64,000 nt of DNA from positions 147,309 to 211,308 of the forward strand of contig NZ_KB891326.1 of assembly GCF_000373385.1 (NCBI RefSeq). The letters run 5' to 3'. The translations under genes and the position numbers were made by a program. The notes under the pieces are model-generated. The model was not told the origin of the DNA. It saw only the letters and a program-made list of their open reading frames with translations, and made no database searches. Positions 24,956 to 60,355 of this stretch are shown piece by piece; position 1 is the first letter of the stretch; each line of letters opens with the position of its first letter. Source of the DNA: Thiobacillus thioparus DSM 505. Its GTDB lineage: Bacteria; Pseudomonadota; Gammaproteobacteria; Burkholderiales; Thiobacillaceae.

Positions 24956-25471
24956 TTAGATATGCGCGGCGAAGGGGTGGCCGGCCTTCGCTTTCTGGGC
25001 AACCACCTCAGCCGCCTTGGGTACGCCGGCAATAGCGCGCTTGATGGATTGCTTGGTAGCTTCGTAGTTGTAGTCTTGGATTTTGGCGTCGTCCTCGGCT
25101 TCCCAGTGGATGAACACGCCCACGCAGATGAACAGATTGTCCGCTTCATCGGCCGGAATGGTGCCGTCTTCCACGCAATCCGCGACAGCCATCGCCACGC
25201 CGCGCTGGGCCGGGCCGAACATCTGAACGGCCTGCTTGGCACCCTTGATGGTCACCTTGTTGAACATCATGGTGTTGGGCTTGCAGGGCAGATTGGGCGC
25301 CACGACAGCCAGCAGGGAAGTGAAGCCGTCCTTGTTGTTGACGAGGCCATTGCAGAACGCCGTTTCAACGGCGCTGCCGCGCGGGCCCATGATCAGATCG
25401 ATATGGGCCACTTCGTTGCCTTCGCCAACCAGGGACTCACCGACCATTACGCTATTGATTTTCGCCATCAT
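24956..25471 (-). CDS. fae: Formaldehyde-activating enzyme
   Basis: A 170-residue protein that matches Fae from end to end: [32 protein letters not shown], the active-site region with His 24, and the helical C-terminus ending GHPFAAHI. It condenses formaldehyde with H4MPT to methylene-H4MPT in the cytoplasm. The start is ATG 25468 or 25471, with GGAG just before. It is the first gene after a 106-bp gap, so it likely has its own promoter. Confidence 0.97.
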
Positions 25472-44176: not shown

Positions 44177-44324
44177 TCATTCGAAAGACGGTCGGCCCAG
44201 GGTAGAGGGTAAGCCTCCATCCCGATGACGTTACACAATCATTTCAACGGGCAGCCGCGTAATTCTTTCTCACAAAATCGGAAATTTCGCACTCCGGAAT
44301 TTCCCTTGTCTGACCAAGGGCTCA

Positions 44325-44341
44325 TACGTGAATGTACGGTA
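44325..44341. promoter_or_regulatory. ACGT-box upstream of ompW
   Basis: ACGTG at 44326 and ACGGT at 44336, ten bases apart, in TACGTGAATGTACGGTA. This differs from the dsbD site TACGTGAAATTACGTGG at only a few bases. It is about 105 bp before the ompW start; TGTAATAGA at 44375 could be a -10. The rest of the 268-bp gap 44177-44444 shows no gene. Confidence 0.55.
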
Positions 44342-44444
44342 GTTCTACCAATTTACACGCTAAGGCCGTGCCCCTGTAATAGAAAGCGGCGTCTTTATCC
44401 GGGTTGCGGTGAAGCGCAAGTTTTCATTCTATTTAGGGGCCTTC

Positions 44445-45044
44445 ATGAAAAAACATAACTTTCTCCCGTCTGTTCTGGGTGTTCTCCTGGCCGCCAGTGC
44501 CGTATCTGCTCATGCCGACCCGATCGGTCTGGATGTGAGCATCGGGTTGGTGAATGTCCGGCCCGATATCAAATCCCCGGTCGTTGGGGCGGATGCCACC
44601 AACGAGGTGGTGCCCATTGCGAACTTCACGTATTACCTGAGCGAGCACTTTGCCCTGAACACGGCGGCCGGCATTACCCGTCACGAGTTCAGCAATGCGG
44701 GCGGCGTCCTGGGCAAGGCCTCCATGGCTCCGTTCCACTTGATGGCCCAGTATCACTTCATGCCGAAAGCGGATTTCCGCCCGTATGTGGGGGTGGGGAT
44801 CCACCATACCGTGTTCTTCAAGCAGAGTGGGCCGGCTTTCAACGGCCTGGAGGATTTCAAGGCGGATACTGGTGCCGTCCTGCAGGCGGGGTTCAGCTAT
44901 ACGTTGAACAAGGATTATTTCGTCAATTTCGATGTCAAGAAGTTCTACCTTGAAACGAATGTGACCCCACAGGGCGGCGCGAAAATCGAGACGATCACGC
45001 TCAATCCCTGGTTGATCGGACTGGCGGTGGGCAAACAATTCTAA
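44445..45044 (+). CDS. OmpW/AlkL-family outer membrane protein
   Basis: A 199-residue eight-stranded outer membrane barrel. It has a signal peptide ending SAHA, then GLDVSIGLVNVRPD, AQYHFMPKADFRPYVGVGIHHTVFF and a C-terminal LAVGKQF with the terminal Phe. OmpW relatives such as AlkL let hydrophobic molecules cross the outer membrane, which fits the AlkB-type monooxygenase downstream. It is monocistronic: an ACGT-box lies before it and a strong terminator after it. Confidence 0.88.
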   Translation: MKKHNFLPSVLGVLLAASAVSAHADPIGLDVSIGLVNVRPDIKSPVVGADATNEVVPIANFTYYLSEHFALNTAAGITRHEFSNAGGVLGKASMAPFHLMAQYHFMPKADFRPYVGVGIHHTVFFKQSGPAFNGLEDFKADTGAVLQAGFSYTLNKDYFVNFDVKKFYLETNVTPQGGAKIETITLNPWLIGLAVGKQF

Positions 45045-45114
45045 AACAGGAGAGGCTGCTGGCACTTGGGCCAGGAAGACGGGCGAATGCGCGTCTTCAA
45101 GCAAATGCACAGCA

Positions 45115-45145
45115 AGAAAAACGCCGGGTATTCCGGCGTTTTTCT
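45115..45145 (+). terminator. Rho-independent terminator after ompW
   Basis: AAAAACGCCGG, loop GTATT, CCGGCGTTTTT: a perfect GC-rich stem flanked by A- and T-runs, so it can end transcription from either side. It lies 70 bp after ompW. Confidence 0.9.
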
Positions 45146-45219
45146 TCCGTATTCGACGGGTAAACACAGACTCAGGCCATCCGGAAAGACTTGGACAAGA
45201 AGGCGTTGAAGTTTTCAAT

Positions 45220-45287
45220 ACGTAGTTTTACGTGTTCGATGCCGTGTCGATACGGATTATCGGCAGGTCGGACATTGCGTATAAATC
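45220..45287 (+). promoter_or_regulatory. ACGT-box and -10 upstream of the Nif11-like gene
   Basis: ACGTA at 45220 and ACGTG at 45230 are ten bases apart. GTATAAATC at 45279 lies 49 bases after the second half-site. The same pair of elements with 47-base spacing precedes the monooxygenase gene, and in both cases the ATG is 115-118 bp after GTATAAATC. The remainder of the 349-bp gap 45045-45393 holds the ompW terminator and no gene. Confidence 0.6.
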
Positions 45288-45393
45288 ATGGATGTATCCG
45301 GCGGAATGTCTTCATGCGAGGGGGGGCCTACGGCGCTTGGATCAGGGCAGGGGCGTCATGCCCCGATACGTCGATGAATCTAAGGAGCTAAAC

Positions 45394-45672
45394 ATGTTGA
45401 AAGCGGCATTGGAAAGAGATACCCAGAATCGCCCGTTCGAGAAAAGCATCAAACAATTCGGCGAGATTGTCATGGCCGAACCCGCATTGCTTGCCAAATT
45501 GGAAGAGCCGCGCGATGCGGACAGCTTCATTGCGATGTACTGCAAGCTGGCTGCGGAAAGGGACATCCATTTTTCTCCTTCTGACATGCGCATCGCCGTT
45601 CAGGAGCAGAAGCAGGGCAGCAACTGGGTGATCCCCAAACCTGTTCTCAACATCGTGCGTGAAATCTTCTAA
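45394..45672 (+). CDS. Nif11-like small protein
   Basis: A 92-residue cytoplasmic protein. The stretch IKQFGEIVMAEPALLAKL, then the FIAMYCKLAAERDIHFSPSDM part, resembles the Nif11 domain. Nif11 occurs in nitrogen-fixation neighbourhoods and as leader of some RiPP precursors. No Gly-Gly cleavage site, core peptide or RiPP enzyme is visible, so it is probably not a precursor. ATG 45394 follows TAAGGAG; upstream in-frame codons are rejected. Function unknown. Confidence 0.65.
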   Translation: MLKAALERDTQNRPFEKSIKQFGEIVMAEPALLAKLEEPRDADSFIAMYCKLAAERDIHFSPSDMRIAVQEQKQGSNWVIPKPVLNIVREIF

Positions 45673-45686
45673 GAAAGGACAGAGCA

Positions 45687-45986
45687 ATGGATGAGATCAA
45701 AACCAGTAGCGGCCGAGTCGTAGGCAGTTGGAACGGCGAGCGCGCCCGCGACTTGATGGCCGAAATTGCCCGGATCAAGCAGATGCTGATCCAGGAAAAA
45801 TCCTCGGAATCGCTGGATTCCAGGTCGATGCCTCACCGCGACCAGCTGCATCAGGACCTGCTCGAATTCAAGGCCTACCATTTATGGGGATGCGACAGGC
45901 ATGGCGAGTGCGTGGTGGGAACCAACGCCAATCGCATCGAAAGTGTGGACAAGGTGCTTTCGTTTTCGCTGATCGACCACCACTGA
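45687..45986 (+). CDS. Small protein of unknown function
   Basis: A 99-residue soluble protein with AAAGGAC-type site upstream, 14 bp after the Nif11-like gene. It has an N-terminal strand (KTSSGRVVGSWNG), a charged helix (ARDLMAEIARIKQMLIQEK) and a C-terminal LWGCDRHGECVVGTNAN with two Cys spaced as CDRHGEC, which could bind metal. I do not recognise the family. It is likely co-transcribed with its neighbour. Confidence 0.65.
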   Translation: MDEIKTSSGRVVGSWNGERARDLMAEIARIKQMLIQEKSSESLDSRSMPHRDQLHQDLLEFKAYHLWGCDRHGECVVGTNANRIESVDKVLSFSLIDHH

Positions 45987-46104
45987 ATCCAGCCCGACGT
46001 GTCCTGCGCCGACGCGGGCGGGTGGGCGTCAGTGCAGGGCACATTGCCGGAGCGGGATTCACGCTGTATGTTTGTCCAGTTGGTCGTCGAATAGAGTCGC
46101 TGAT

Positions 46105-47268
46105 ATGCACCGTCAAGAAATATCCGCCCTGCTGCTCAAGGTGCAGGAAATCGCCAAGGATGTCGTGGCGCCAAATGTGGAACGCACGGACCGCGACGCG
46201 CTCTGGCCCGAGCCGGGTATCCGAGCGCTGCAGCGCGAAGGACTGGGAGGCGCGGTCATCCCGACTGCCTATGGCGGACTGGGGCACGGGCTCATGGCGT
46301 TGGTAAGGGTGTGCGAGACGCTGGGGCAGGAATGCGCCTCCACTGCGATCTGTTACGGCATGCATTGCGTCGGCGCTTCTGTCATTGCGGCGAACGCCAC
46401 GCCGGACCAGCAAACGCGATTCCTGGGGCCAATCTGCGAGGGGCGTCACATCACGACCCTGTCCTTGAGCGAAGCCGGCACCGGCGCCCATTTCTATCTG
46501 CCGCAAACGACGTTGGAGGCGGTGTCTTCGGATGAATTCAGCCTGACGGGCAGCAAGACCTTCGTCACCAATGGCGGCCATGCCGATTCCTACGTGGTAT
46601 CGGCAGTCGCCGCCTCGCCCGAAGCGCCCATCGGACAATTCTCCTGCGTGGTCGTCCCGGCCGACTCCAAGGGGGTCCGCTGGGGCGCCGAGTGGGATGG
46701 CCTGGGCATGCGCGGCAATTCCTCGCGCACGATGGAATTGCAGGGTGTGCATGTGCCGCGCAGCAATCTGCTGGGCAAGGAAGGCGACCAGATCTGGTAC
46801 ATCTTCAACGTGGTCACGCCCTATTTCCTGATGGCCATGGCCGGCACCTTCCTGGGCGTTGCCACCACGGCGCTGGACGAGGCCCGGAAACATCTGATCC
46901 GGCGCTACCACACCCATACGGGCTCGAGCCTGGCGCAGGCCTCGGTATTGCAGCATCGTCTGGGGACCCTGTGGGCGACGCTGGAGCGTACGCGCCAATT
47001 GACTTACCACGCCGCCGCCAGCTTCGATGCAGGTGAGCCGGATGCGCTCACGGCAATCATGGCGGCCAAGGTCGAAGTGGCCGATTGCGCGGTCACCGTG
47101 GTCAACGAAGCCATGACCCTGAGCGGCGGGATCGGGTATCGCAACGGCTCGCGCCTGCACCGCCTGCTGCGCGACGCACGGGCAGCCCACCTGATGTCGC
47201 CCACGACCGATATCCTGCGCGTCTGGATCGGCCGCGCCTTGCTTGGCCAACCTTTGCTGTCGGACTAG
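46105..47268 (+). CDS. Acyl-CoA-dehydrogenase-fold flavoprotein lacking the usual catalytic Glu
   Basis: A 387-residue protein with the ACAD N-terminal helices, the FAD strand region (TLSLSEAGTGAHF, LTGSKTFVTNGGHAD) and the C-terminal GGIGYRNGSRLHRLLRDARAAHL. Where acyl-CoA dehydrogenases have the base in xEGTxxI, this protein reads MSPTTDI. The alternative Glu site of isovaleryl-type enzymes is also absent (YFLMAMAGTFLG). It may therefore be a DszC/SfnB-like flavin monooxygenase or a divergent dehydrogenase. It lies 4 bp before the sensor kinase gene. Confidence 0.75.
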   Translation: MHRQEISALLLKVQEIAKDVVAPNVERTDRDALWPEPGIRALQREGLGGAVIPTAYGGLGHGLMALVRVCETLGQECASTAICYGMHCVGASVIAANATPDQQTRFLGPICEGRHITTLSLSEAGTGAHFYLPQTTLEAVSSDEFSLTGSKTFVTNGGHADSYVVSAVAASPEAPIGQFSCVVVPADSKGVRWGAEWDGLGMRGNSSRTMELQGVHVPRSNLLGKEGDQIWYIFNVVTPYFLMAMAGTFLGVATTALDEARKHLIRRYHTHTGSSLAQASVLQHRLGTLWATLERTRQLTYHAAASFDAGEPDALTAIMAAKVEVADCAVTVVNEAMTLSGGIGYRNGSRLHRLLRDARAAHLMSPTTDILRVWIGRALLGQPLLSD

Positions 47269-47272
47269 CGAC

Positions 47273-49744
47273 ATGGCCACTGCCCATTCGGAGCTTGGTG
47301 GGATTCTGCATCTGGTCGGCGTGGCGCCCGCGATCAATACCTTGTTGCGAAGCGCACTGGAGCCCGAGGTGACGGTCGAGGCAATGAGCAGCCAGGATCG
47401 GCTGTACCATCATTTTCAGGAAGGGTACCAGCCGGCCGATACCGTGCTGCTGGGCATGGACATCGAGGACCCGGTGCGCATTGCCCAGCGCATCCATACG
47501 TATGACCACCATGTTCCCATCCTGATCCTGACTGCGGCCTCACGCTGCGACCAGTTGAAACGCACGCTGATGTTCAGCCCTTTTCTGGGCAATGAGGTGG
47601 TGCCATGGTCCACCGCCGAGGTGGACGAACTGCCGTCCGTCATCCGTGATGCGGTGAATCGGCGGCGACAGCGCGTGCGTTACCTGAACACGATCTCGCG
47701 TGCGCAGATCCGGCTGGAAAAGCTGCCGCTGCTCCAGCCGGAGGCGACCTACTATCTGGATCAGCTGCTCGATCATGCGCCCATCGGCGTGCTGACGGTC
47801 GATCTGAACTGCGCCATCCTGACCATCAACCGTCAGGCCCAGACCATTCTGGGTGTGAGCGAGCGTGGCGCGCTGGGGCGGCCGCTGGGGGAACAGTTTC
47901 CGTTGCGCGAGCAGGGGCGCCTGGCCGCCTTGCTGCAGCAGGGGCTGAAAGGCATGGAACGACATAAGCCGGAAATTCTCGAGGTTGACGCCCGGAGTGG
48001 GGCCGTCCGCTTTCTGGAAGTCACGCCGGCACCGCTGGCCTACCGCACCGGCCAGCGCGGCGCCATGCTGATCTTGCAGGACGTGACCGACCGTGTGGCG
48101 GCGGAACGCGAGCGGCAACGTGCGGAAGACGACTTGCGCTATCACGCCACGGTGCTGCGTTCGTTCCATGAAATCAGTTCCGACCAGGAACTCAGCCTGG
48201 AAGAGAAACTGCACCAGCTGCTGAAACTGGGGTGCGAGCAATTCGGTCTGCCGAACGCAGTTCTGTCGCGCATCGACGGCCAATGTTTCCAGATCCTGGA
48301 TTCCGTCAGCGACCATCCAGCGTACGTGGTGGGAACGAGCAAGGATCTCGATCAGACCTATTGCAGCGCCACGGTTTTCACCAATGAGCCGGTGGCGTTC
48401 GAGCATGCCGGCATTACCGAATGGCGACACCATCCGAGCTATCTTGAGCATCGCATGGAGGCGTATATCGGCGTACGTATCGTGGTCGACGGCGGATTAT
48501 ACGGAACCCTCTGTTTTGCCAGCCCCGCACCGCGCCCTTCATCGTTCAGCTCAGCCGACCTGGAAGTCCTCAAGCTGATGTCGCAATGGGTGGGCAACGA
48601 ATTGCAACGCGAACGCGCCGAGGCCCACATGCGCAAGCTGTCGGGCGCGCTGGAGCAGGCTGCCGATTCGGTGATGATCACGGACCGCGACCGGCGCATC
48701 GAATACGTCAACCCGGCTTTCGAACGTCTGACCGGTTATGCCAAGGCAGACGTGATCGGCCACAAGACCTATTTCCTGCGTTCAGGCATGCACGACGAAG
48801 TGTTTTACCAGGATCTCTGGCAGGTGATAGAGAATGGCGGCGTCTATCGCGGTGTCCTGGTCAATCGCAAGAAGGACGGCAGCATTTTCCATGAGCAGAA
48901 GACGATCTCGCCACTCAAGGACGTGCAGGGCCGGATCACGCATTTCATCTCGACCGGCCACGACATTTCCGATCGGGTGAAAGCCGAGGAACTCGACCGC
49001 CAGCACAAGACGGAACTGGCGCACGTCGGCCGCCTGAGCGTCCTGGGGGAAATGACCTCCGGCCTGGCGCATGAACTGAACCAGCCCCTGTGTGCCATCA
49101 CCACCTATGCACAGACATGCCTGCGCATCATCCAGTCCGGCAACTGCAAGCCGGACGATGTGCGCTACGGACTCGAGCAGGTGGTGAAGCAGGCCGAACT
49201 CGGCGGTGCGATCTTCCGTCGTCTGCGCAACTTCGCGCGCAAGGGTGACTTGCGCCAGCAGCGCATCGACCTGCGCGAGGTGATCCTGGAGGCCGCCAGT
49301 TTCGTGCGTGCCGAGGTGCAGCAGAACCAGGTTCAGCTGCACATGGATATTCCACGCCAGTTGCCTGTCGTCATGGCGGACCCGATCCAGATCGAACAGG
49401 TCCTGCTCAATCTTGTCCGCAACAGCCTGGACGCACTGTCCGACGTGGACGAGGGGCGACGGCAGATCACCATCAAGGCAGCTCGTCACGAGCGCCATGC
49501 GGTCAAGATATGCATCAGCGACAGCGGATGCGGCTGCCCGCAAGAAGTGGTGGATCGGCTGTTCGAACCTTTTTTCACCACCAAGGCAACCGGACTCGGC
49601 ATCGGGCTGGGCATCAGCCAGAGCATCATCGATGCGCATGGCGGACGTCTCTGGCTCGAGGAAGGGACCGCGCCGGGGGCCACGTTCTGTTTCGTTCTAC
49701 CTGGTTCCGGAGAGTCCCGACATGAAAAGTACCCAGTCCGGTAA
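47273..49744 (+). CDS. Multidomain sensor histidine kinase
   Basis: An 823-residue soluble kinase with no membrane helix. In order: a receiver-like domain (about 10-125), PAS (165-275), GAF (300-440), PAS with PAC (460-575), HisKA with SGLAHELNQPL (His 600) and HATPase with SDSGCGCPQEV and GLGIGLGIS. The layout recalls TodS/StyS and FixL-like kinases that sense substrates or redox state in the cytoplasm. It overlaps its regulator gene by 23 bp. Confidence 0.92.
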   Translation: MATAHSELGGILHLVGVAPAINTLLRSALEPEVTVEAMSSQDRLYHHFQEGYQPADTVLLGMDIEDPVRIAQRIHTYDHHVPILILTAASRCDQLKRTLMFSPFLGNEVVPWSTAEVDELPSVIRDAVNRRRQRVRYLNTISRAQIRLEKLPLLQPEATYYLDQLLDHAPIGVLTVDLNCAILTINRQAQTILGVSERGALGRPLGEQFPLREQGRLAALLQQGLKGMERHKPEILEVDARSGAVRFLEVTPAPLAYRTGQRGAMLILQDVTDRVAAERERQRAEDDLRYHATVLRSFHEISSDQELSLEEKLHQLLKLGCEQFGLPNAVLSRIDGQCFQILDSVSDHPAYVVGTSKDLDQTYCSATVFTNEPVAFEHAGITEWRHHPSYLEHRMEAYIGVRIVVDGGLYGTLCFASPAPRPSSFSSADLEVLKLMSQWVGNELQRERAEAHMRKLSGALEQAADSVMITDRDRRIEYVNPAFERLTGYAKADVIGHKTYFLRSGMHDEVFYQDLWQVIENGGVYRGVLVNRKKDGSIFHEQKTISPLKDVQGRITHFISTGHDISDRVKAEELDRQHKTELAHVGRLSVLGEMTSGLAHELNQPLCAITTYAQTCLRIIQSGNCKPDDVRYGLEQVVKQAELGGAIFRRLRNFARKGDLRQQRIDLREVILEAASFVRAEVQQNQVQLHMDIPRQLPVVMADPIQIEQVLLNLVRNSLDALSDVDEGRRQITIKAARHERHAVKICISDSGCGCPQEVVDRLFEPFFTTKATGLGIGLGISQSIIDAHGGRLWLEEGTAPGATFCFVLPGSGESRHEKYPVR

Positions 49745-50357
49745 GGCGACCGTTTTTATCGTCGACGACAACCCAGCGGTACGCGATGCGATCCGCTGGC
49801 TCGTCGAGCAGATCGGCCTCAATGCAAAAACCTTCGCTTCGGCGCGCGATTTCCTGACGGCTTTCCAGCCCGGCATGCGCGGTTGCCTGGTGCTGGACAT
49901 CCGCATGCCCGGCATGAGCGGCATCGAACTCCAGGAAAAGCTGTCCCGCGAGCAGGCGCATCTACCGGTCATCATCGTGACCGGCCATGGCGACGTGCCG
50001 GTCACGGTGCGCGCCATGAAGACCGGTGCCTTCGAATTTCTGCAGAAGCCTTTCAATGACCAGGTTCTGATCGATGCCATCCAGGCCGCGCTGGGCAAGT
50101 ACAGCGCAGTCTGGGAACAGGAGGACAAACGCAGCCAGGCCAACCGGAGTCTGGCGGCGCTGACACGGCGCGAGCGCGAGATCCTCGAACTGTTGCGCCG
50201 CGGCAAGCCCAACAAGGTGATTGCCGCCGAGCTGGATTTGTCCGTGCGCACGGTAGAGGGACATCGCGCCAACATCACGGAGAAGATGGGCGTCAAGTCC
50301 CTTGGCCAGCTGATCGAGTTGCTGCTCAAATCCGATCCGGACAACGTGCCCAACTGA
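49722..50357 (+). CDS. FixJ/NarL-type response regulator
   Basis: A 211-residue regulator: receiver with Asp 59 in CLVLDIRMPG, LPVIIVTGHGDVP, KPF, and a LuxR-type helix-turn-helix (LTRREREILELL ... KVIAAELDLSVRTVEGHRANI). It is the partner of the kinase encoded just upstream. The monooxygenase operon starts 278 bp downstream with an ACGT-box, so it is the prime candidate to bind that site; that is inference. Confidence 0.93.
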   Translation: MKSTQSGKATVFIVDDNPAVRDAIRWLVEQIGLNAKTFASARDFLTAFQPGMRGCLVLDIRMPGMSGIELQEKLSREQAHLPVIIVTGHGDVPVTVRAMKTGAFEFLQKPFNDQVLIDAIQAALGKYSAVWEQEDKRSQANRSLAALTRREREILELLRRGKPNKVIAAELDLSVRTVEGHRANITEKMGVKSLGQLIELLLKSDPDNVPN

Positions 50358-50460
50358 ATCTTCCCGAGACATATCCTGCCCCGAACGGGGCGCCACGTAC
50401 CTGCAGCAATGTCCTGGCGCGGTTCGTCATCCGGATCCACTGCTAGATGCGCCAAGACCC

Positions 50461-50526
50461 ACGTATTTCCACGTGTTTCATCGTATTTTTCCGGGTTACC
50501 CCGAGCGCATCCTGTCGGTATAAATC
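50461..50526 (+). promoter_or_regulatory. ACGT-box and -10 upstream of the monooxygenase operon
   Basis: ACGTA 50461, ACGTG 50471 and TCGTA 50481 give three half-sites at 10-bp steps. GTATAAATC at 50518 is a likely -10 region, 47 bases after the second half-site and 118 bp before ATG 50636. The gap 50358-50635 otherwise has only a short GC hairpin (GCCCCGAACGGGGC, about 50377) that may end the regulator transcript. Confidence 0.65.
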
Positions 50527-50635
50527 GCCTCAGATGGTGAGTTTGCGATTCGGCCTTCCCCTCCTTCGCAGGTCGATTTGCCGGCTCACCATCACCTTAA
50601 ATCCACAAAACGAGGCATATAAAAGGAGCTACATC

Positions 50636-51916
50636 ATGCGCAGTCTCATATTCGGTCATCTCGTCTACATGTATACGCCGCTCGGCATTCTGGCCACCAT
50701 CGCCGGGATACTGCTGGGCGGTCCCTGGGTGTGGATCGGTATTGGCATCTTCGCCTTCAATATCACCATGGACACCCTCACGTCCGGCATTCACAGCAAA
50801 GGCGCGGCCGTCAACAAGAAAGGGCAGCCCGTCGGTTCGCCCGCCATCCTCAACCTGATGATGTACGCCCAGCTACTCAGTTTCATCGCGCTTCAACTCG
50901 CAGTGGTCTGGCGTATTTACCAGTATGTGGCCGGCGTTCCCATCGAAACCATGATGTGGAACGGTTACGCCTACCAGAACGGAATAACCGGTCTTGAGCT
51001 GGTTGCCGTCGTAGTGGGCGCCGGCATGCATCAGGGCCTGGGCATCATGTTCGGTCATGAACTCTCCCATACCAAGGGGATCGGCTTCCTGATCTCCCGG
51101 ATGATGATGAGCCTCTCCGGCGCCGCCGCATTCTGCTACGCCCACGTCTACAACCATCACCTCGAACTGGGACGCGCCTGGCTGGGCCCCGAAGGCAACA
51201 AGATGATGGAAGACACGGATCCGGCAACCGCACCGCGCGGACGCAGCCTCTACAAGCACTGGGTGATCTCGACGATCGGCCAGTCCTATTTTGGTTACCG
51301 GACCGAGCAGCGTCGCCTGAAGCGTATGGGCAAATCCTTCTTCTCCTTCTCCAATCGCTGGATCCGAGGCTATCTGCTGAGCATCCCGACCGTGGCGCTG
51401 TTTGCCGGCGCCGGCTACGTGGCGGGCGGCCAGGACGGTGCGTTGCTGAGTTTGGGATGCATGCTGTTGATCTGGGCGATTTCCACCTTTGAACTGGAAG
51501 CGCTCAACTACATGGAGCACTACGGGCTGATCCGCGTGAAGGATCAGCCGATCGAGTATCGCCACTCCTGGGACAACGACAACGCTTTCACCAGTTGGGC
51601 CTTTATCGAGATCGGGCGCCAAGCCGATCACCATGACCGCGGCGAAACCCATTTCTGGGAACTCACCAGCGTGGGCCAACCCTCGTCGCCCGCAGGCGCA
51701 CCCAATGCACGTATCGGTTACTACACCGAATTCGTGTTGGCACTGATCCCGCCGCTGTGGCACGCCGTCTACAAGAAGAAACTGGCGATCTGGGACCGCG
51801 ATTTCGCATCGCCCGAAGAGCGCAAGATTGCCAAGGAGATCAACCGCAAGGTTGGCTACGAGGTCAATCCTGAATCCATCAGCGGCCAGCGGCTGGAAGT
51901 CAGCTACGCCCTGTAA
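50636..51916 (+). CDS. AlkB/XylM-type membrane diiron monooxygenase with altered His box
   Basis: A 426-residue integral membrane protein with about six helices. The His boxes are HELSH (His 141 and 145), HVYNHH (His 170, 174, 175), NYMEHYG (His 295) and RQADHH (His 332 and 333). The third canonical box is HxxHH; here the first His is Gln 329. Other ligands are kept, so hydroxylase function is plausible but the metal site is atypical. AAAAGGAG precedes the start. Globin and reductase genes follow, a XylMA-like set. The substrate is unknown. Confidence 0.85.
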   Translation: MRSLIFGHLVYMYTPLGILATIAGILLGGPWVWIGIGIFAFNITMDTLTSGIHSKGAAVNKKGQPVGSPAILNLMMYAQLLSFIALQLAVVWRIYQYVAGVPIETMMWNGYAYQNGITGLELVAVVVGAGMHQGLGIMFGHELSHTKGIGFLISRMMMSLSGAAAFCYAHVYNHHLELGRAWLGPEGNKMMEDTDPATAPRGRSLYKHWVISTIGQSYFGYRTEQRRLKRMGKSFFSFSNRWIRGYLLSIPTVALFAGAGYVAGGQDGALLSLGCMLLIWAISTFELEALNYMEHYGLIRVKDQPIEYRHSWDNDNAFTSWAFIEIGRQADHHDRGETHFWELTSVGQPSSPAGAPNARIGYYTEFVLALIPPLWHAVYKKKLAIWDRDFASPEERKIAKEINRKVGYEVNPESISGQRLEVSYAL

Positions 51917-51921
51917 CCCCG

Positions 51922-51947
51922 AGTGCCGGCCACATCGGTGACCGGCA
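51922..51947 (+). other. Intercistronic hairpin between monooxygenase and globin
   Basis: GTGCCGGCCAC and GTGACCGGCAT are near-complementary around a short loop, with no T-run after. It may tune mRNA stability or translation of the genes downstream rather than end transcription. Confidence 0.45.
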
Positions 51948-51994
51948 TATAGAGCACGACATTGCGGCGGACTGCCGCGTATGAGGAGATCAAC

Positions 51995-52360
51995 ATGAAC
52001 ACCGAAGCCACACTTTACGAACGTCTTGGCAAGCGGCCTGGCATCGAAGCCATCGCCACCGACATTTTCAACAACCATGTCAAGAATCCAAAGGTCAAAA
52101 CTCGCTATGCAAACAGCGACCCGGCCAATGTGATCCGCCTGGTAACCGAAATGTGCTGCGCCGGGTTTGGCGGGCCGGAGACCTATACCGGCAAGGATAT
52201 GATCACAGCACACACTGGCATGAACATCAACGAAGAAGAATTCGTTGCGGTGTGCGACGACGTGCTGGCCGCACTCGACAAGAACAACGTGGGCAAGCGC
52301 GAGAAGGATGAAGTCCTTTGCATTCTGTATTCCTTGAAGAACGAGGTCGTCCACCTGTAA
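51995..52360 (+). CDS. Group I truncated haemoglobin
   Basis: A 121-residue 2/2 globin of the GlbN family: TLYERLGKRPGIEAIATDIFNNHVKNPKV at the start, GGPETYTGKDM with the conserved Gly turn, and AHTGMNINEEEF, where the proximal His is in TAHTGM. Roles in O2 delivery or NO removal are known for the family. Sitting between oxygenase and reductase it may supply O2 or protect the diiron site. GAGGAGAT precedes ATG 51995. Confidence 0.9.
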   Translation: MNTEATLYERLGKRPGIEAIATDIFNNHVKNPKVKTRYANSDPANVIRLVTEMCCAGFGGPETYTGKDMITAHTGMNINEEEFVAVCDDVLAALDKNNVGKREKDEVLCILYSLKNEVVHL

Positions 52361-52366
52361 TTGCAC

Positions 52367-52390
52367 AGGGGTGCCCCAGCCGGCACCCCT
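52367..52390 (+). other. Intercistronic hairpin between globin and reductase
   Basis: AGGGGTGCC and GGCACCCCT form a perfect 9-bp stem with a 6-base loop. No T-run follows and the reductase ribosome-binding site is 13 bp on. Partial termination or mRNA protection could set the ratio of reductase to oxygenase. Confidence 0.55.
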
Positions 52391-52415
52391 AACGTTTCGC
52401 ACAAGGAGTTGCATC

Positions 52416-53483
52416 GTGTTTGGATTTTTTGCTCGCAAGGGGCCCCATCGGGCTCGTATCACCACCAGCGGCGACACCATCGAGGTCGGCGCCGGTGACA
52501 ATTTGCTCAAGGCGGCGTTGAACCAGGGTCTGGCCTGGCCACATAATTGCCGGGTCGGCAGTTGCGGGCAGTGCCGATGCCGCTTGGTAAGCGGCAAGAT
52601 CAAGCCGCTCAACGATTTCAGCTACGTCCTCACCGGCGAGGAGATGGATGCCGGCATGATCCTGGCCTGCCAGACCAGCCTGCGTAGCGACGTCGAGATC
52701 GAGGTCGCCCTGGACAAGCCGGCAATCGCATTGTCGCAGCCGAAGAGCGTGGGTGGCGTGATTGCCCAAGCGCGGCCGCTGACCCATGACATCCTAGAGG
52801 TGCGTATCCGTCTCGATGAAGCCATGCCTGCCTACCTGGCAGGACAATATGCCGAATTGTCGGTCCCTGGCCTGATTGAGAAGCCGCGTTCCTATTCCTT
52901 TGCCAGCGCACCCGAGAACGAGCAGTCCGGCCATGTCAGCTTTTTCATCCGACATGTGCCTGACGGCGAGATGACCAGCTGGCTACATACCGCCAATCAG
53001 GAAGGACAACGGGTCAGCGTCGCGGGCCCCTATGGCTCCTTCTGGCTGCGCGACTCCACGGCGCCCATGTTGTGCATTGCTGGCGGCAGCGGCATGGCAC
53101 CGATCAAGGCCCTGCTGGAGCAGGTGTCGAGTCAGGGCTTTCAGCGACAGGTCACCTATGTGTTCGGCGCACGCACGCGCGACGATCTGTATTGCCTGGA
53201 TGAGATGAAGCAGATCAAGGCACGCTGCAACGGCCACTTCAACTTCATTCCGGTATTGTCACGCGAGCCGGACGACAGCGACTGGAGCGGCCTGCGCGGC
53301 CACTGCACCGATATTCTGTCACCCGATGCATTTGACTTGCCGAACAGCCATGCCTATCTGTGTGGGCCGCCCGCCATGATCGATAGCGCGATTGAGTGCC
53401 TGAGTCGTGCCGGAGTGAAGTCTGAGCATATTTTTTACGACAAGTTTATCGACGCATCGCATATGCAGGGCGGGCGCGTTTAA
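52416..53483 (+). CDS. [2Fe-2S] ferredoxin-NAD(P)H reductase (electron supply to the monooxygenase)
   Basis: A 355-residue XylA-like protein. The N-terminal plant-type ferredoxin domain has HNCRVGSCGQCRCRLV and a later Cys in ILACQT. Then comes an FAD domain with RSYSFASAP, and an NAD domain with CIAGGSGMAPIKALLE and YLCGPPAMID. It passes electrons from NAD(P)H to a terminal oxygenase. GTG 52416 is chosen because AAGGAG stands 8 bp upstream; in-frame earlier codons lie in the hairpin. Confidence 0.92.
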   Translation: MFGFFARKGPHRARITTSGDTIEVGAGDNLLKAALNQGLAWPHNCRVGSCGQCRCRLVSGKIKPLNDFSYVLTGEEMDAGMILACQTSLRSDVEIEVALDKPAIALSQPKSVGGVIAQARPLTHDILEVRIRLDEAMPAYLAGQYAELSVPGLIEKPRSYSFASAPENEQSGHVSFFIRHVPDGEMTSWLHTANQEGQRVSVAGPYGSFWLRDSTAPMLCIAGGSGMAPIKALLEQVSSQGFQRQVTYVFGARTRDDLYCLDEMKQIKARCNGHFNFIPVLSREPDDSDWSGLRGHCTDILSPDAFDLPNSHAYLCGPPAMIDSAIECLSRAGVKSEHIFYDKFIDASHMQGGRV

Positions 53484-53540
53484 TTGTTTCGAAGGTTCTA
53501 AGCCAGTTCAAATGGTGCATCAGTACCAGTCGGGGACATA

Positions 53541-53665
53541 AGTAAATTCCCTGATTCAACTACAGGCTCGTCCCTATAGACGGGCCATCATCGTCAGCGC
53601 GTTAATGGTGTAGGGGTTTCATGTGCGTTCTACGTGAAATTACGTGGAATCCCTGCACGCGATTA
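53541..53665 (+). promoter_or_regulatory. Conserved upstream region of dsbD with ACGT-box
   Basis: The clearest ACGT-box, TACGTGAAATTACGTGG, lies at 53631-53647 (half-sites 53632 and 53642). The 90 bp before it, from ATTCCCTGATTCA through TATAGACGG and TTAATG, resembles the region before the ABC importer at 60241-60355, aligned with few gaps. The 268-bp gap 53484-53751 has no gene. Confidence 0.65.
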
Positions 53666-53751
53666 CGAGCGCGTCAAAGCAGCAGCTGCGGCTGAATGTG
53701 CATCCTGGCCGCAAACATTACATCAAAAAATGCGGAGAGCTTTTTTACAAT

Positions 53752-55605: not shown

Positions 55606-55764
55606 ATAAATTTCGAAGTAATGCAAATTATTTACAGGAGGTCGATATGTACATGCGAACACTGTAATTATTCGGTTTGTAGTGCGTAATTGGAGGTATG
55701 CCTTATAAATTCGATACCGGTCACAAGGTATGGAATTCTTGCTGTCAACGATAAGGAGCACAAA

Positions 55765-56271
55765 ATGAAAATGAAATCATTTCTTGCAGCGTTGTTTTTT
55801 GCGTTTAGTGCACTGGCCGTAAATTTCCCTGTTTATGCAGCAGATGCTCCAGAAGATACGGAGGCGTTGAACGGGTTACATGAGGTTAAAGTGATTTTCG
55901 ATATCACCACCGGGGATGCAAAAAAACTCCTGTCTCGTTTAGGGCTCATTGAAGAGACGCGTGATGGGATGTTGAAACAAGGCGTTACGCCTCATTTTGT
56001 TCTTGCCTTCCGTGGACCCGCAAGCCTGTTTATCCAGAAAGATCAGAGCCGGGTCAAATTGGAGGATGTCGAGCTGATGGAGAAAATTCAACTGAAACTT
56101 AAAGAGATGAGCAAGGACAAGAGTTTCAGCCTTGCGCAGTGCGCGGTAGCCAATCGCTATTTGAAGATCAAGAACGAAGATACCATTCCTGAAGTTCATG
56201 TAGTTGGCAATAGTTTCATCTCGATGGCGGCATATGAAAACAAGGGATACGCTTATATCCCGATTGATTGA
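55765..56271 (+). CDS. Exported DsrE-family protein
   Basis: A 168-residue protein with a signal peptide (ending PVYAAD) and a DsrE/DsrF-like fold: EVKVIFDITTGDAKKLLSRLGLIEET, HFVLAFRGPASLF, and a Cys in AQCAVANRYLKI. Cytoplasmic DsrE carries sulfur; exported versions are of unclear function. ATAAGGAG lies before the start. It stands 159 bp after dsbD, a gap with no gene. Confidence 0.85.
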   Translation: MKMKSFLAALFFAFSALAVNFPVYAADAPEDTEALNGLHEVKVIFDITTGDAKKLLSRLGLIEETRDGMLKQGVTPHFVLAFRGPASLFIQKDQSRVKLEDVELMEKIQLKLKEMSKDKSFSLAQCAVANRYLKIKNEDTIPEVHVVGNSFISMAAYENKGYAYIPID

Positions 56272-56282
56272 AAGACATAAAC

Positions 56283-56867
56283 ATGGCATTGGGTAAATTG
56301 CAGTTAATAACAATTGCCGTACTGGGTCTCGTCTCGACTTCCACCATTGCCGATGATGGTGGAAGCAAGATTCAACACCTTGTCGATCCAGTGACCAGCA
56401 TTGAGTCCTGGGTATTGCATGACAAGGGTTTTGAGGTTGAGTTGATCCAGATCAGCCCGGATCAGGCACGCGGCTTTTTTCTTGCGCGTGGCTTCGATCG
56501 GAAGAATGCGGATTTTTATGCGGAAAGTTGCGTGCTGGCGTTAAGAGTGCGGAATAAATCGCCGGAGACCATTTCGTATGATTTGGCCAATTGGCGATAT
56601 ATGACGGCAGATGGCGTAAATCGGAAGCTGAAACTTAAAGACAAATGGCTGCATGAATGGCAGCAGCGCGGCGTTTCCAAGAGCGCTCAAATCGCTTTCG
56701 AGTGGTCGCAGCATCCGCTCGCGCAGACACTGGATCCCAAGGACTGGAATCAAGGCATGACTACATACCAGATTGCCCACGGCAGCGTGTTTGACTTGAC
56801 TGTGAAATGGAATAGAGGAGACAAGCAGTATGTGGATACAATTAAGGGGGTTCGCTGTGCAGATTAG
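56283..56867 (+). CDS. Conserved exported protein paired with TlpA (cassette copy 2)
   Basis: A 194-residue exported protein (signal MALGKLQLITIAVLGLVS...), paralogous to 18396-18998: shared QISPDQAR, LARGF, ESCV, DWNQGMTTYQ and final VRC. No named domain is recognised. ATG 56283 is preferred; TTG 56268, which overlaps the DsrE stop, is the other option. It overlaps the TlpA gene by 11 bp. Confidence 0.75.
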   Translation: MALGKLQLITIAVLGLVSTSTIADDGGSKIQHLVDPVTSIESWVLHDKGFEVELIQISPDQARGFFLARGFDRKNADFYAESCVLALRVRNKSPETISYDLANWRYMTADGVNRKLKLKDKWLHEWQQRGVSKSAQIAFEWSQHPLAQTLDPKDWNQGMTTYQIAHGSVFDLTVKWNRGDKQYVDTIKGVRCAD

Positions 56868-57414
56868 TGCGCTTAGACGTATTCTGTTCACGTTAGCAAT
56901 CGTTTCCGGCCTGCTGCTTAACGCTAGAGTTGGTTTGGCCGCCGACGAAGAGGCTTTCAGCCCTGTTTCGGGCAATCCGGTTGCGCCAAAGCTTACATTG
57001 CATGATATGGACGGTAAGCTGGTCGATCTTAAGCAACTAAAAGGTAAAGTGGTTATCGTCAATTTCTGGGCGACATGGTGCCCGCCATGTCGGGCTGAAA
57101 TGCCTTCCCTGCAGCGGCTTTGGAAAAAGCTAGGCGCATCGAAGATTCAGATCGTGGCCGTAAATGTGGGAGAAGATGCCGATACCGTCCTCGGTTTCAT
57201 GGGGACGCTGGACGAGTCGCCCACCTTCCCGATTGTGTTTGACAAGGATAGCGCCACTTTGCGTGCCTGGCCGGTCAGGGGCTTGCCCACGACTTTTCTG
57301 ATAGACAAAAAAGGTCACATTGCTTATCGGGCAATTGGCGGTCGACATTTTGATAGTCCCGAGAATATTCATTTTATAACCGAGCAGATTGAGGGTTCAA
57401 GTACGGGGAAATAA
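56857..57414 (+). CDS. TlpA/ResA-type thioredoxin-like protein (cassette copy 2)
   Basis: A 185-residue exported redoxin with signal peptide ending VGLAA, FWATWCPPC (Cys 75 and 78), NVGEDADTV and RGLPTTFLID. It closely matches copy 1 at 17879-18409. GTG 56857 has AAGGGGG at ideal distance and is preferred over ATG 56830. It ends the dsbD cluster, and a palindrome follows at 57435. Confidence 0.9.
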   Translation: MQISALRRILFTLAIVSGLLLNARVGLAADEEAFSPVSGNPVAPKLTLHDMDGKLVDLKQLKGKVVIVNFWATWCPPCRAEMPSLQRLWKKLGASKIQIVAVNVGEDADTVLGFMGTLDESPTFPIVFDKDSATLRAWPVRGLPTTFLIDKKGHIAYRAIGGRHFDSPENIHFITEQIEGSSTGK

Positions 57415-57434
57415 TTCCTCTTGATGAAATAAAG

Positions 57435-57466
57435 CGAATACAGAACTCATGCGAGTTCTGTATTCG
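57435..57466. terminator. Perfect palindrome after the dsbD cluster
   Basis: CGAATACAGAACTC, loop ATGC, GAGTTCTGTATTCG: a 14-bp perfect stem with no T-run. It may work as a factor-dependent terminator or 3' mRNA stabiliser. It starts 20 bp after the TlpA stop. Confidence 0.55.
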
Positions 57467-57827
57467 TGCGTTTCAGGTGCGGCTGTTCAGAGGCGTTGCA
57501 CAGGAGAGGGATAAGGGCCCGTTCTATCAAGTTGTTCAGATATATGTTTGTCTGTGCCTACCGTGGTATGCAGGGGATATCAGGATGGCTTCGATTCTCT
57601 GCTATGGGTTTAACCATATGCTTGCTATTGTGGGCATTACGAAGTGTCATTTTACTGTGTTGCTTTTGTGACATTTTGGTTTTTCCTTGACCCGTCTCCG
57701 TAAGCTGTAAGCCCGTTTGTATGGGCTTTCCACGTAATTTCTTCGAGATGGTTAGGAATTTGCTTGTGTCAGTGGATGAGGGCTGCTTTGACGGTTCCAG
57801 CCTACCCCGTTCCGATCGGAGCAATGC
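57467..57827. promoter_or_regulatory. Gap before the second kinase, with a weak ACGT half-site
   Basis: A 361-bp non-coding stretch. It has a short hairpin (AAGCCC ... GGGCTT at 57711-57729) followed by CCACGTAATTTC at 57730, which in reverse reads GAAATTACGTGG, the core of the dsbD site. Only one half-site is intact. Small frames here show no coding signs. Confidence 0.4.
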
Positions 57828-59105
57828 ATGCAACTTATCGCCCATTCTTCTATCTGGGCATTACTGATTGCCGTTCTGGCCCTGATGGGAGGGCTGGTGC
57901 TCTATGTGAGTCATCTCAACCGGAGGTTGCGCCATTCCAAAAAGGTGCTGGAGATGGAAATCGGCGAACGGCGCCGAGCTGAAGAAAAGTCTGCAGAGAA
58001 CGAGAATAGGCTGCGCCAGATCATCGCATCCGAGCCCGAATGCGTGAAATTGCAAACTCAAGACGGGATCCTGCTGGAAATGAATCCGGCTGGGCTAACC
58101 ATGATGGGCGCCAATCAGTCAAACGAGATCATCGGGACTTCCGTATACGATCTCATCGTGCCGAAATTTCGGGACGAATACCGTGCGCTGACCACACGTG
58201 TCTTTTCCGGCGAGTCTGACGCCATGGAGTTTCAGATCATCAGCCTGAGGGGCCGCCGTCTTTGGATGGAGACCCATGCCGTACCTTTGCGTGACGGACG
58301 TAATCGAGTCATTGCCCTGCTTGGCATTACACGTGATATTACCGTGCGCAAGCACGCAGAAGAGGAAATCCGCCTGCATTATCGTGAACTGGCCCATGCT
58401 TCCCGGGTGAATACCATGGGTGAGATGGCTTCCGGTCTGGCGCACGAACTGAATCAACCCCTTGCGGCCATCGCCAACTACTCACATGGGTGCCTGCGCC
58501 GCATTCGCTCCGGTACAGGCACGGTGGACGACCTGACACGTGCCATCGAGCAGGTCTGCAGCCAGGCAGACCGAGCCGCTGAAATCATCAGGAGTTTGCG
58601 GAGCTTCGTGAACAAGGAGGACAGCCCCTTCAGGCCGCTGGAGCTTAAGACCATCGTGCGCGAAGCCATGCTGATCGTGGGGCCGGAAGCGTACGCGCAT
58701 CAGGTGGACGTCACGCTTAAATTTATGCCTGACATGCCTAAAGTGCTGGGCAATGCCATCCAGATCGAGCAGGTGGTCCTGAATCTCATACGCAATGCGG
58801 TCGAGGTCATGGACGAGATTCCATTCATGCTGCGCTACCTCGAACTGCACACCTTTATGGAAGACGACCTGGCCGTCGTGGAGGTGCGCGACACCGGCCC
58901 CGGTCTGCCAGCTGAGATGCTGGCGCGCATGTTTGATCCTTTTTTCACGACTAAAGAGACGGGAATGGGGATGGGCTTGGCGATCTGCCGGTCGATTGTG
59001 GAAGCGCACGGTGGCAGCTTGTCTGCCTTCCCAAATAAGGAAGGCAATGGGCTGACTCTCCGTTTCACCCTGCGTCTGGCTATGGAGGAAATATCTCATG
59101 AATGA
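57828..59105 (+). CDS. Membrane-tethered PAS sensor histidine kinase
   Basis: A 425-residue kinase. One N-terminal helix (about 8-28), a short coiled coil, a PAS/PAC domain (60-180; EPECVKLQTQDGILLEMNPAG), HisKA with SGLAHELNQPLAAIANY (His 206) and HATPase with RDTGPGLP and MGMGLAICRS. The catalytic half is close to the kinase at 47273-49744. It has almost no periplasmic loop, so it senses at or inside the membrane. It overlaps the regulator gene by 8 bp. Confidence 0.92.
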   Translation: MQLIAHSSIWALLIAVLALMGGLVLYVSHLNRRLRHSKKVLEMEIGERRRAEEKSAENENRLRQIIASEPECVKLQTQDGILLEMNPAGLTMMGANQSNEIIGTSVYDLIVPKFRDEYRALTTRVFSGESDAMEFQIISLRGRRLWMETHAVPLRDGRNRVIALLGITRDITVRKHAEEEIRLHYRELAHASRVNTMGEMASGLAHELNQPLAAIANYSHGCLRRIRSGTGTVDDLTRAIEQVCSQADRAAEIIRSLRSFVNKEDSPFRPLELKTIVREAMLIVGPEAYAHQVDVTLKFMPDMPKVLGNAIQIEQVVLNLIRNAVEVMDEIPFMLRYLELHTFMEDDLAVVEVRDTGPGLPAEMLARMFDPFFTTKETGMGMGLAICRSIVEAHGGSLSAFPNKEGNGLTLRFTLRLAMEEISHE

Positions 59106-59727
59106 TCGGCAGCAAACGGTCTTTGTAGTAGACGATGATCAGGCGGCACGTGAGTCATTGCGCTGGCTGCTCGAGTCGGTTGGCCATCAGGTGTGTTGTC
59201 CTGCTTCGGCGCTTGAATTCCTTGAAAGCTATGACGGTAGTGTGCCGGGATGTCTGGTCCTGGATGTCCGTATGCCCGGTATGGGGGGCCTGGAATTGCA
59301 AAACCACCTGCTCGAACGCGGCTGGTGCTTGCCAGTTATCCTCGTCACAGGGCACGGTGATGTCCCGATGGCAGTACGCGCGATGAAAGCGGGAGCAGTC
59401 GATTTTCTCGAGAAACCCTATAACGACCAGGTGTTGCTTGAACGTATTCAACGCGCGCTTGAATTATGCCGGCAGCGTAGCCATGACCACGAGAAACTGG
59501 CCGAATTTCAGGCCAGTTTTCAGAGTTTGACGTTGCGCGAACGGGAGGTTGCCGCACTCGTCGTGTCCGGCAAGGCGAATAAAGTGATTGCCATCGAACT
59601 GGGGTTGAGCCCGAAAACCATCGAGGTCCATCGCGCCAATGTCATGTTCAAGATGCGCGTGAAATCATTGCCCGAACTGGTGCAGATATGGATGCGTCTG
59701 GAAAAGTCGAGTTTAAGTCAGGAATAG
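59098..59727 (+). CDS. FixJ/NarL-type response regulator (second)
   Basis: A 209-residue regulator with receiver Asp 56 (CLVLDVRMPG), LPVILVTGHGDVPM and a LuxR-type DNA-binding domain (LTLREREVAALV ... KVIAIELGLSPKTIEVHRANV). It is clearly related to the regulator at 49722-50357, so both could read the same ACGT-type site. It is the last intact gene before the transposase remnant. Confidence 0.93.
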   Translation: MNDRQQTVFVVDDDQAARESLRWLLESVGHQVCCPASALEFLESYDGSVPGCLVLDVRMPGMGGLELQNHLLERGWCLPVILVTGHGDVPMAVRAMKAGAVDFLEKPYNDQVLLERIQRALELCRQRSHDHEKLAEFQASFQSLTLREREVAALVVSGKANKVIAIELGLSPKTIEVHRANVMFKMRVKSLPELVQIWMRLEKSSLSQE

Positions 59728-59815
59728 AGCGTCCACTTCTCGTACACGAAGAGCGAATATGTGCCGGTTTTCGGGGTCGCGTTGGCCTGTGGTAATCCGG
59801 CTACCGTTTCTCCTT

Positions 59816-60200
59816 TCAGGCGTGGAATAAGGCCATGGCATAACTGGAGTTTCGGGAACGCCCTATATTGCCGACGACGTCTCTCTGCGCCTCAGTAGCC
59901 AATGGAACTGATTTGACGGCGCATTGCCCTGCTTGGGCAGGAGGCATCAAGCGGTACAGCGATGCCATTGGCCATTCTTGATTGTATTTGCTGCACCACG
60001 CCTCGATCACCGCCATTGCATCGGTCAGGCTGACAAATCCATTCGATCACCGCCATTGCATCGGTCAGGCTGACAAATCCATGCTCATTCAGGCACACGT
60101 CGTGTATACGCCCGTTGCCTTCTGCAAGAAACATTGAACGGTGCTTCCGTGAATCGCTACGTCGTGTCCAATCTCTTTCACGATCTGGATCCGGTCCCAA
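59816..60200 (-). pseudogene. Remnant of an IS3-type transposase (3' end)
   Basis: On the minus strand, split between frames, one reads CLNEHGFVSLTDAMAVIE, then AWCSKYNQEWPMASLYRL. These match the C-terminal end of IS3-family OrfB (DECLNEHWF, EAWRxDYNxxRPHSSL). Stops and frame changes remove function. A 40-bp tandem duplication lies inside it. No complete terminal inverted repeats were found. Confidence 0.6.
60003..60082. repeat. 40-bp perfect tandem duplication inside the IS remnant
   Basis: Two exact copies of a 40-bp unit (60003-60042 and 60043-60082), beginning TCGATCACCGCCATTGCATC. As 40 is not a multiple of 3 it shifts the transposase frame. Perfect identity suggests a recent event. 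Confidence 0.9.
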
Positions 60201-60240
60201 TTTCAGGGGCTATTCAAATCGAGAGACCAACGTGGGTCTA

Positions 60241-60355
60241 GGTGTATTCCCTAATTAATCTACATACTGGTACCAATAGACGGTTGTTGGTATCTGCGCA
60301 TTTAATGAGGACATGCGTAAGGGAAACTACGTGGTCCATTGCACGTGATTTCGTT
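60241..60355 (+). promoter_or_regulatory. Conserved upstream region of the ABC importer
   Basis: It resembles 53541-53665: ATTCCCTAATTAA, TACA, AATAGACGG, TTTAATG and TAAGGGAAACTACGTGG (60318-60334), where only the second ACGT half-site is intact. A further ACGTG is at 60343. The region begins just after the IS remnant and ends 147 bp before ATG 60502; no gene is seen in between. Confidence 0.55.

Follow-up and report, generated by a model that had tools for sequence, protein, structure and literature searches.

This study concerns a 64,000-nucleotide stretch of the Thiobacillus thioparus DSM 505 genome (the window), in which pairs of ACGT half-sites had been proposed, in an original prediction made from the letters alone, as the mark of a six-promoter regulon. 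These pairs belong to a larger signal made of 14-bp dyads in tandem, of the form NCGTA-N4-TACGN. The dyads precede two operons on the forward strand. One (45394..50357) carries genes for proteins of 92 and 99 amino acids (aa), an acyl-CoA-dehydrogenase-like gene, the PAS-GAF-PAS kinase HK1 and the FixJ-type regulator RR1 (49743-50357); the other (50636..53483) encodes an AlkB-like monooxygenase (MO), a bacterial globin, and a ferredoxin-NAD reductase. With a probability of about 0.7, the ACGT pairs are fragments of tandem RR1 operators that would govern a small regulon made up of both core operons and, probably, ompW. The proposed six-promoter regulon shrinks to a core of two promoters plus that probable third.

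Tandem dyads at the two core promoters

Both core promoters show the same order of elements, in a register set by eye: a dyad, a gap, a second dyad, one base, and a -35-like hexamer. Before the 92-aa gene, the distal dyad ACGTA-GTTT-TACGT (45220..45233), the best 14-mer of the window, is followed after 8 bp by the proximal dyad CCGTG-TCGA-TACGG (45242..45255) and by putative promoter hexamers, TTATCG and TATAAA (45257..45285, by eye). The MO promoter has ACGTA-TTTC-CACGT (50461..50474) and, 6 bp further, TCGTA-TTTT-TCCGG (50481..50494), followed by the equally putative hexamers TTACCC and TATAAA (50496..50524, by eye). All of these elements lie on the forward strand, and at both promoters 17 bp separate the -35-like hexamer from TATAAA. 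The two distal dyads are ACGT pairs of the original prediction, and the TCGTA that it placed at 50481 opens the proximal MO dyad. Across loci, the gap is 8 bp in 11 of 11 registered pairs before the 92-aa gene (7 bp in L017, found later) and 6 bp in 10 of 10 before MO; in the remaining rows a single dyad was registered. The claim of a shared, operator-like upstream signal stands, and the signal is conserved before orthologues of both core operons, but its unit is the tandem dyad and not a direct ACGT repeat.

Of 15 loci (the window being one), 11 have the perfect 8/8 form CGTA-N4-TACG in the 300 bp preceding the 92-aa gene, and 2 have it upstream of MO. As a marker in the T. thioparus genome this strict form was discarded: only 45220, among its 8 sites (96 in the reversed control), lies in an expected promoter, and the MO, ompW, and dsbD sites are missed. 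The ACGT pairs and half-sites themselves were all found as described. Exact ACGTN6ACGT occurs in the window only at 45220, 50461, and 53632 (3 sites, against a mean of 0.46 and a maximum of 2 in 100 shuffles of the window), and further half-sites lie at 44326 (ACGTGAATGTACGG), 50481 (TCGTA), 60319 (AAGGGAAACTACGT), and 57732 (ACGT). As had been claimed, all six sites lie outside genes as called in our analysis; a mechanical open reading frame (ORF), 50447-51916, overlaps 50461, but the orthologues start at the position corresponding to 50636 instead.

The window was ranked with a dyad matrix trained on the two core promoters, 45220 and 50461 being training sites and 53632 and 44326 not. Among single 14-mers, 45220 came first, 53632 second, 50461 third, 44326 fifth, 60319 25th, and 57732 139th. 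From 60 shuffles of the window, no match is expected at scores of at least 16.2 bits, 0.27 matches at the level of 44326, and 15.5 at the level of 60319. Four of the six proposed sites stand above chance; that before the ABC importer (60319), taken as a dyad, and that before the second kinase (57732) do not. With a matrix from the 92-aa side, and each locus searched whole and on both strands, the MO promoter took rank 1 or 2 in 11 of 15; in the window this promoter came first, and elsewhere rank 2 was only behind a training promoter. In the reverse test, with an MO-trained matrix, the 92-aa promoter was third or better in 15 of 15.

Wider scans gave a similarly confined distribution. Model R2 (14 sites, with the rows of the window, L016, and L025 left out), run over 60 relatives, gave 10 matches at E <= 0.0104, two each in G000, G005, G013, G016, and G030, which are the five of the 60 genomes with an MO of at least 80% identity. 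The other 55, two of which hold only distant MO homologues, gave 3 weak matches (E 0.10-0.38). Of the five, G013 is the contig of L019, which was a training locus, and G030 the contig of L021, which is close to another, L020; the fair test consists of G000, G005, and G016. Model R1 (17 sites) found only the two core promoters in the T. thioparus genome up to E = 10 (among the best 150 of 390 candidates), and over 14 cassette loci it gave 22 matches at E values of up to 5, every one of them among the 28 core promoters and 7 outside the training rows. A new lineage (G309, locus L129; MO 74% identical) carries the cassette, with a site before its 92-aa gene at E = 0.0024 and, by eye, the proximal dyad AAGTAGTTTTACGG in its MO promoter. 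Up to E = 10, R1 found no tandem site in 21 loci with ~55% MO homologues, nor in L029, L031, and L045-L047.

The signal, in this register and with this conservation, coincides with the RR1 cassette. Relatives of MO were drawn from named genomes at 16 loci, including Thiobacillus metagenome-assembled genomes, Methylobacillus sp. MM3, Parasulfuritortus, Hyphomicrobium zavarzinii, and gammaproteobacterial metagenome-assembled genomes; the remote loci L029 and L031 were left out of the cassette count, leaving 14, and the cassette spans genomes of beta-, gamma-, and alphaproteobacteria. All 14 contain the genes for MO, globin, and reductase, those for the 92-aa and 99-aa proteins, and the acyl-CoA-dehydrogenase-like gene, which in L022 is cut off where the stretch ends. 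HK1 and RR1 lie in the examined stretch of 13, and L022 has an RR1-clade regulator elsewhere on its contig, beyond that stretch. Each of the 15 cassettes, and that of L129, has an RR1 linked to it, and these regulators form one clade of 16 rows with a support of 100/100. The 92-aa (45394-45672) and 99-aa (45687-45986) genes, although present in every cassette, have no Pfam match up to E = 1; the label Nif11-like originally given to the former was not confirmed, as it also lacks a match to any NCBIfam family at 1e-4.

Other promoters of the window

Before ompW, the overlapping dyads ACGTGAATGTACGG and CGGTAGTTCTACCA (44326..44350, forward strand), which were not in the training set, have the third-best tandem score of the window (17.5; 0.017 expected from 60 window shuffles). 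The ompW tandem ranks third also in L016, L017, and L022, i.e., in 4 of 7 loci, and lies outside the top four in L020, L021, and L025. On this basis, ompW is probably part of the RR1 regulon. At 44296-44308, GGAATTTCCCTTG (GGGATTTCCCTTG in L016 and L025) by eye resembles the FixJ core AATTTCCCTT.

dsbD and the ABC importer are better explained by a separate module of canonical FixJ-like boxes, with RR2 as its possible binder; this second FixJ-type regulator is encoded with the kinase HK2 (57828..59727, forward strand). The box before dsbD, TAAGTAAATTCCCTGA (53539..53554, forward strand), has 2 mismatches to the S. meliloti fixK FixJ site, a motif taken from outside this work, and the box before the ABC importer, CACGTAGTTTCCCTTA (60318..60333, reverse strand), which is the degenerate site of the original prediction, has 3. 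At up to 3 mismatches the fixK site has 3 matches in the window against 0.05 expected, the third being a weak AT-rich one at 55619; genome-wide, the 16-mer has 6 matches, half of them in the window, versus 7 in the reversed control, i.e., no enrichment. Similar boxes (3-5 mismatches, individually weak) precede osmC at a comparable position in 5 of 11 loci, that of T. thioparus included.

Alternatively, dsbD and the ABC importer could belong to the RR1 regulon through 53632 and 60319, which we consider rather unlikely. The dyad before dsbD, ACGTGAAATTACGT (53632..53645, forward strand), is one of the exact ACGT pairs and second in the window at a score for which the 60 shuffles predict no match, and the dsbD and ABC promoters are alike over ~110 bp (77% mean column identity in a forced alignment of two chosen stretches). 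Yet neither site is part of a tandem. The dsbD dyad is common only to close kin L016, and 60319, at chance level as a dyad, contains exactly the FixJ consensus GTAGTTTCCC obtained by systematic evolution of ligands by exponential enrichment (SELEX). Moreover, the dsbD copy is present only in G000 and G005 among 11 genomes; a search of the T. thioparus genome for a further copy of the dsbD promoter gave only a weak 25-base match (E 0.73). What survives of the original assignment is a dsbD dyad above chance, and both promoters are reassigned to the canonical FixJ-like boxes.

The half-site before HK2, also counted as a member in the original prediction, was rejected: it reads ACGC in L016, and nothing was found at that place in 5 more orthologues, so that the conservation seen at the two core promoters does not extend to it. 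L025 has ACGT with TCGTA 10 bp on upstream of HK2, at another place. The regions upstream of HK2 orthologues (57630-57700 in the window) share, by eye, a block with GTGTCA/TGACA elements that is unlike the dyads. Between RR2 and the ABC importer lies a perfect 40-base tandem duplication (60003-60082). Outside the window, two Hyphomicrobium-type loci (L026 8898, L027 8972) have a third tandem dyad between a peroxiredoxin-type gene (Pfam AhpC-TSA in L026) and a divergent gene that by eye resembles an NAD(P)H reductase in both.

RR1 as candidate regulator

RR1 consists of a receiver domain (PF00072, 9.2e-30) and a GerE/LuxR helix-turn-helix domain (PF00196, 5.4e-19), the composition of a FixJ/NarL-type regulator. 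The FixJ equivalog of NCBIfam (NF006900, cut-off 255) is not reached by RR1 (216.3) or RR2 (238.5), and by these scores both are FixJ-like, not FixJ. The solved structures nearest to RR1 are 1yio (StyR) and FixJ 5xso.

The original prediction named both regulators as the natural candidates, and one joint regulon in which RR2, or RR1 and RR2 together, bind the tandem dyads has some evidence on its side. RR2 (at least 73% identical) is present in the genomes of L017, L019, L020, and L022 and in G000, G005, G013, G016, and G030, and within the genus the 5 of 36 genomes that have it are those with a close MO. The DNA-binding helices of RR1 and RR2 are similar, and the dyad is also found beside a third type of FixJ-like regulator. 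We nevertheless regard this reading as improbable. RR1, not RR2, is linked to every cassette. In the genomes of L018, L028, and L030, the best match to RR2 is RR1 itself (49-52%), and yet both tandem sites are present in L018 and L030, and one of them in L028. Since the sites persist where a close RR2 is absent, RR1 is the better candidate; the prediction of a FixJ-type binder holds, whereas the equal standing given to the two regulators does not.

Several points weigh against an RR1 regulon delimited in this way. The MO-promoter sites are weak or single in L023 (fourth), L024 (seventh), L027 (fifth), and L028 (third); some rows are near copies (window/L016/L025 and L019/L020/L021); the dyads were registered by eye; and a strictly filtered R1 scan gave no match in the genome of L129. 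Less close relatives of RR2 (57-60%) are encoded in the L023, L024, L026, and L027 genomes, and two of these group as its sisters in the tree, so that RR2 is excluded as binder only for L018, L028, and L030. When R1 was run over 369 genomes of the class, three besides T. thioparus had matches at E <= 0.05 (0.0017, 0.016, and 0.018), a threshold that some chance matches should pass in a set of this size, where E-values alone mean little. The match in L151 coincides with a TonB-receptor match and was taken as chance. In the siblings L150 and L152, the site lies where a FixJ-type regulator gene meets an OsmC-family gene; L024 shows this arrangement too, with a FadL/TodX-type porin next to it. The regulators beside these sites are only 44-48% (L150, L152) or 39-41% (L024) identical to RR1/RR2, so that a broader FixJ-like subfamily, and not RR1 exclusively, may use the dyad.

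Across the 3.2-Mb genome, ACGTN6ACGT occurs 17 times, 3 of them in the window. A locus was available for 12 of the 14 sites beyond it, and each of the 12 falls within an ORF, the lengths running from 73 to 778 aa (9 in ORFs of at least 300 aa, 2 in ORFs of 126-149 aa, and 1 only in a 73-aa ORF), according to a rough check that also counts 50461 as covered. The literal pattern is therefore no general promoter mark, and we rejected it as a genome-wide regulon marker. That the ACGT pairs are mere chance in AT-richer intergenic DNA would agree with these occurrences and with the chance-level scores of the HK2 half-site and of the ABC site as a dyad, but is very improbable given the conservation, register, and held-out results at the core promoters, and survives only for 57732 and, in part, for 53632.

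In the small RR1 regulon that we favor, HK1 would phosphorylate RR1 (encoded at 49743), and RR1 dimers would occupy the two 14-bp dyads ending one base before the -35 box, where they would recruit sigma-70 polymerase. RR1 would thereby switch on its own HK1/RR1 operon, in a positive feedback, as well as the membrane monooxygenase/globin/reductase operon and probably ompW, while dsbD and the ABC importer may answer to RR2 via the canonical FixJ-like boxes. The inducer would probably be a methylated sulfur compound.

The statement that no NarL/FixJ site of such a form had been described proved wrong, as FixJ sites with a CGTAG/GTAGTTT core and N4 dyads next to -35 have been described. FixJ selects the SELEX classes GTAGTTTCCC and GTAMGTAG (PMC4999443) and R. 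palustris FixJ binds GTACGTAG (PMC13327599). The sites share with these operators the CGTAG/GTAGTTT core, the presence of two sites upstream of the promoter, and a FixJ-type regulator (PMC4999443 and PMC13327599). In contrast, the window dyads are more symmetric, with both arms CGTA/TACG, and stand in tandem at 6 or 8 bp; the genes controlled would be those of a monooxygenase cassette, and the kinase HK1 shows a PAS-GAF-PAS architecture. The full FixJ consensus is not shared by the tandem dyads; of the other boxes, those before dsbD and the ABC importer match the fixK site with the mismatches given above, and the latter also contains the SELEX consensus. GTAMGTAG has one match in the window, at 8646, and none at the sites.

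In PMC5874301 and PMC2442086, the StyR/TodT operators are ATAAAC-N4-GTTTAT, and GGTGTTCGCACC is proposed for TdiR. These systems resemble ours in the N4-centered dyad, in having a high-affinity site close to -40 or immediately before -35, and in a PAS kinase and StyR-type regulator beside a catabolic oxygenase operon. The arms differ, the aligned sites having CGTA/TACG, so that only the N4 layout and the position agree. At the StyR positions K175, V176, and H179 given in PMC5874301, and counting by hand, RR1 has E, G, and A in 16 of 16, unlike StyR; RR2 has E, V, and A in 7 of 8 (E, A, and A in L022), and FixJ has E, V, and A. Among the papers listed from the open-licence PMC literature, none dealt with this cassette or operator, and as far as our searches show, the sequence of the operator is new, as are its arrangement in tandem and its link to the cassette.

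A possible role of the monooxygenase cassette

MO matches the AlkB-type membrane monooxygenase structures 8sbb and 8f6t over ~270-300 residues. The partner of AlkB is rubredoxin; unlike the AlkB-type enzymes, MO is encoded with a globin and a BenC-like reductase, near one-carbon (C1) and methyl-sulfur genes. Fae is encoded in the window (24956-25471), and past its end the T. thioparus genome encodes homologues of OsmC, dihydrolipoamide dehydrogenase, Fae, a MauG-like protein, SCO1, and MtoX, the last at L154 10849-12231 (on the same contig, C11, ~11-12 kb past the window end). This MtoX is 86% identical to that of L019, which, like that of L030, exceeds the NCBIfam methanethiol-oxidase cut-off (739 and 723, respectively, versus 650), and MtoX lies in the examined flanks, which differ in length, of 8 of 16 cassette genomes. 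With the dyad matrix, no site stood out before mtoX and fae of T. thioparus. A palindrome of the same N4 layout, TAAGGG-TTT(A/T)-CCCTTA, precedes mtoX in L154, L054, and L059 and is perhaps the operator of another regulator.

As reported in PMC6548844, the proteins that Methylophaga thiooxydans induces on dimethyl sulfide (DMS) include a "fatty acid desaturase," an NAD(P)H flavin reductase, a porin, dihydrolipoamide dehydrogenase, a peroxiredoxin, and methanethiol oxidase; its first DMS enzyme was not found, and the authors tie the desaturase to membrane repair. Methylophilaceae and Thiobacillus without dmoA became labelled from DMS, according to PMC4611497. This induced set and these dmoA-less bacteria, as described there, together with the frequent position of the cassette near methanethiol oxidase and formaldehyde genes, make MO a candidate DMS oxygenase of thiobacilli. 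Genomic context thus suggests, tentatively, that the cassette might perform the first step of DMS oxidation in thiobacilli, Methylophilaceae, and some hyphomicrobia, with the tandem dyads as operators of a DMS-responsive two-component switch. MO would hydroxylate DMS to yield methanethiol and formaldehyde, feeding MtoX and Fae; other methylated substrates fit MO too.

The operators provide a testable promoter handle on an uncharacterized monooxygenase cassette, and they suggest that FixJ-type recognition can diverge while the N4 dyad layout stays.

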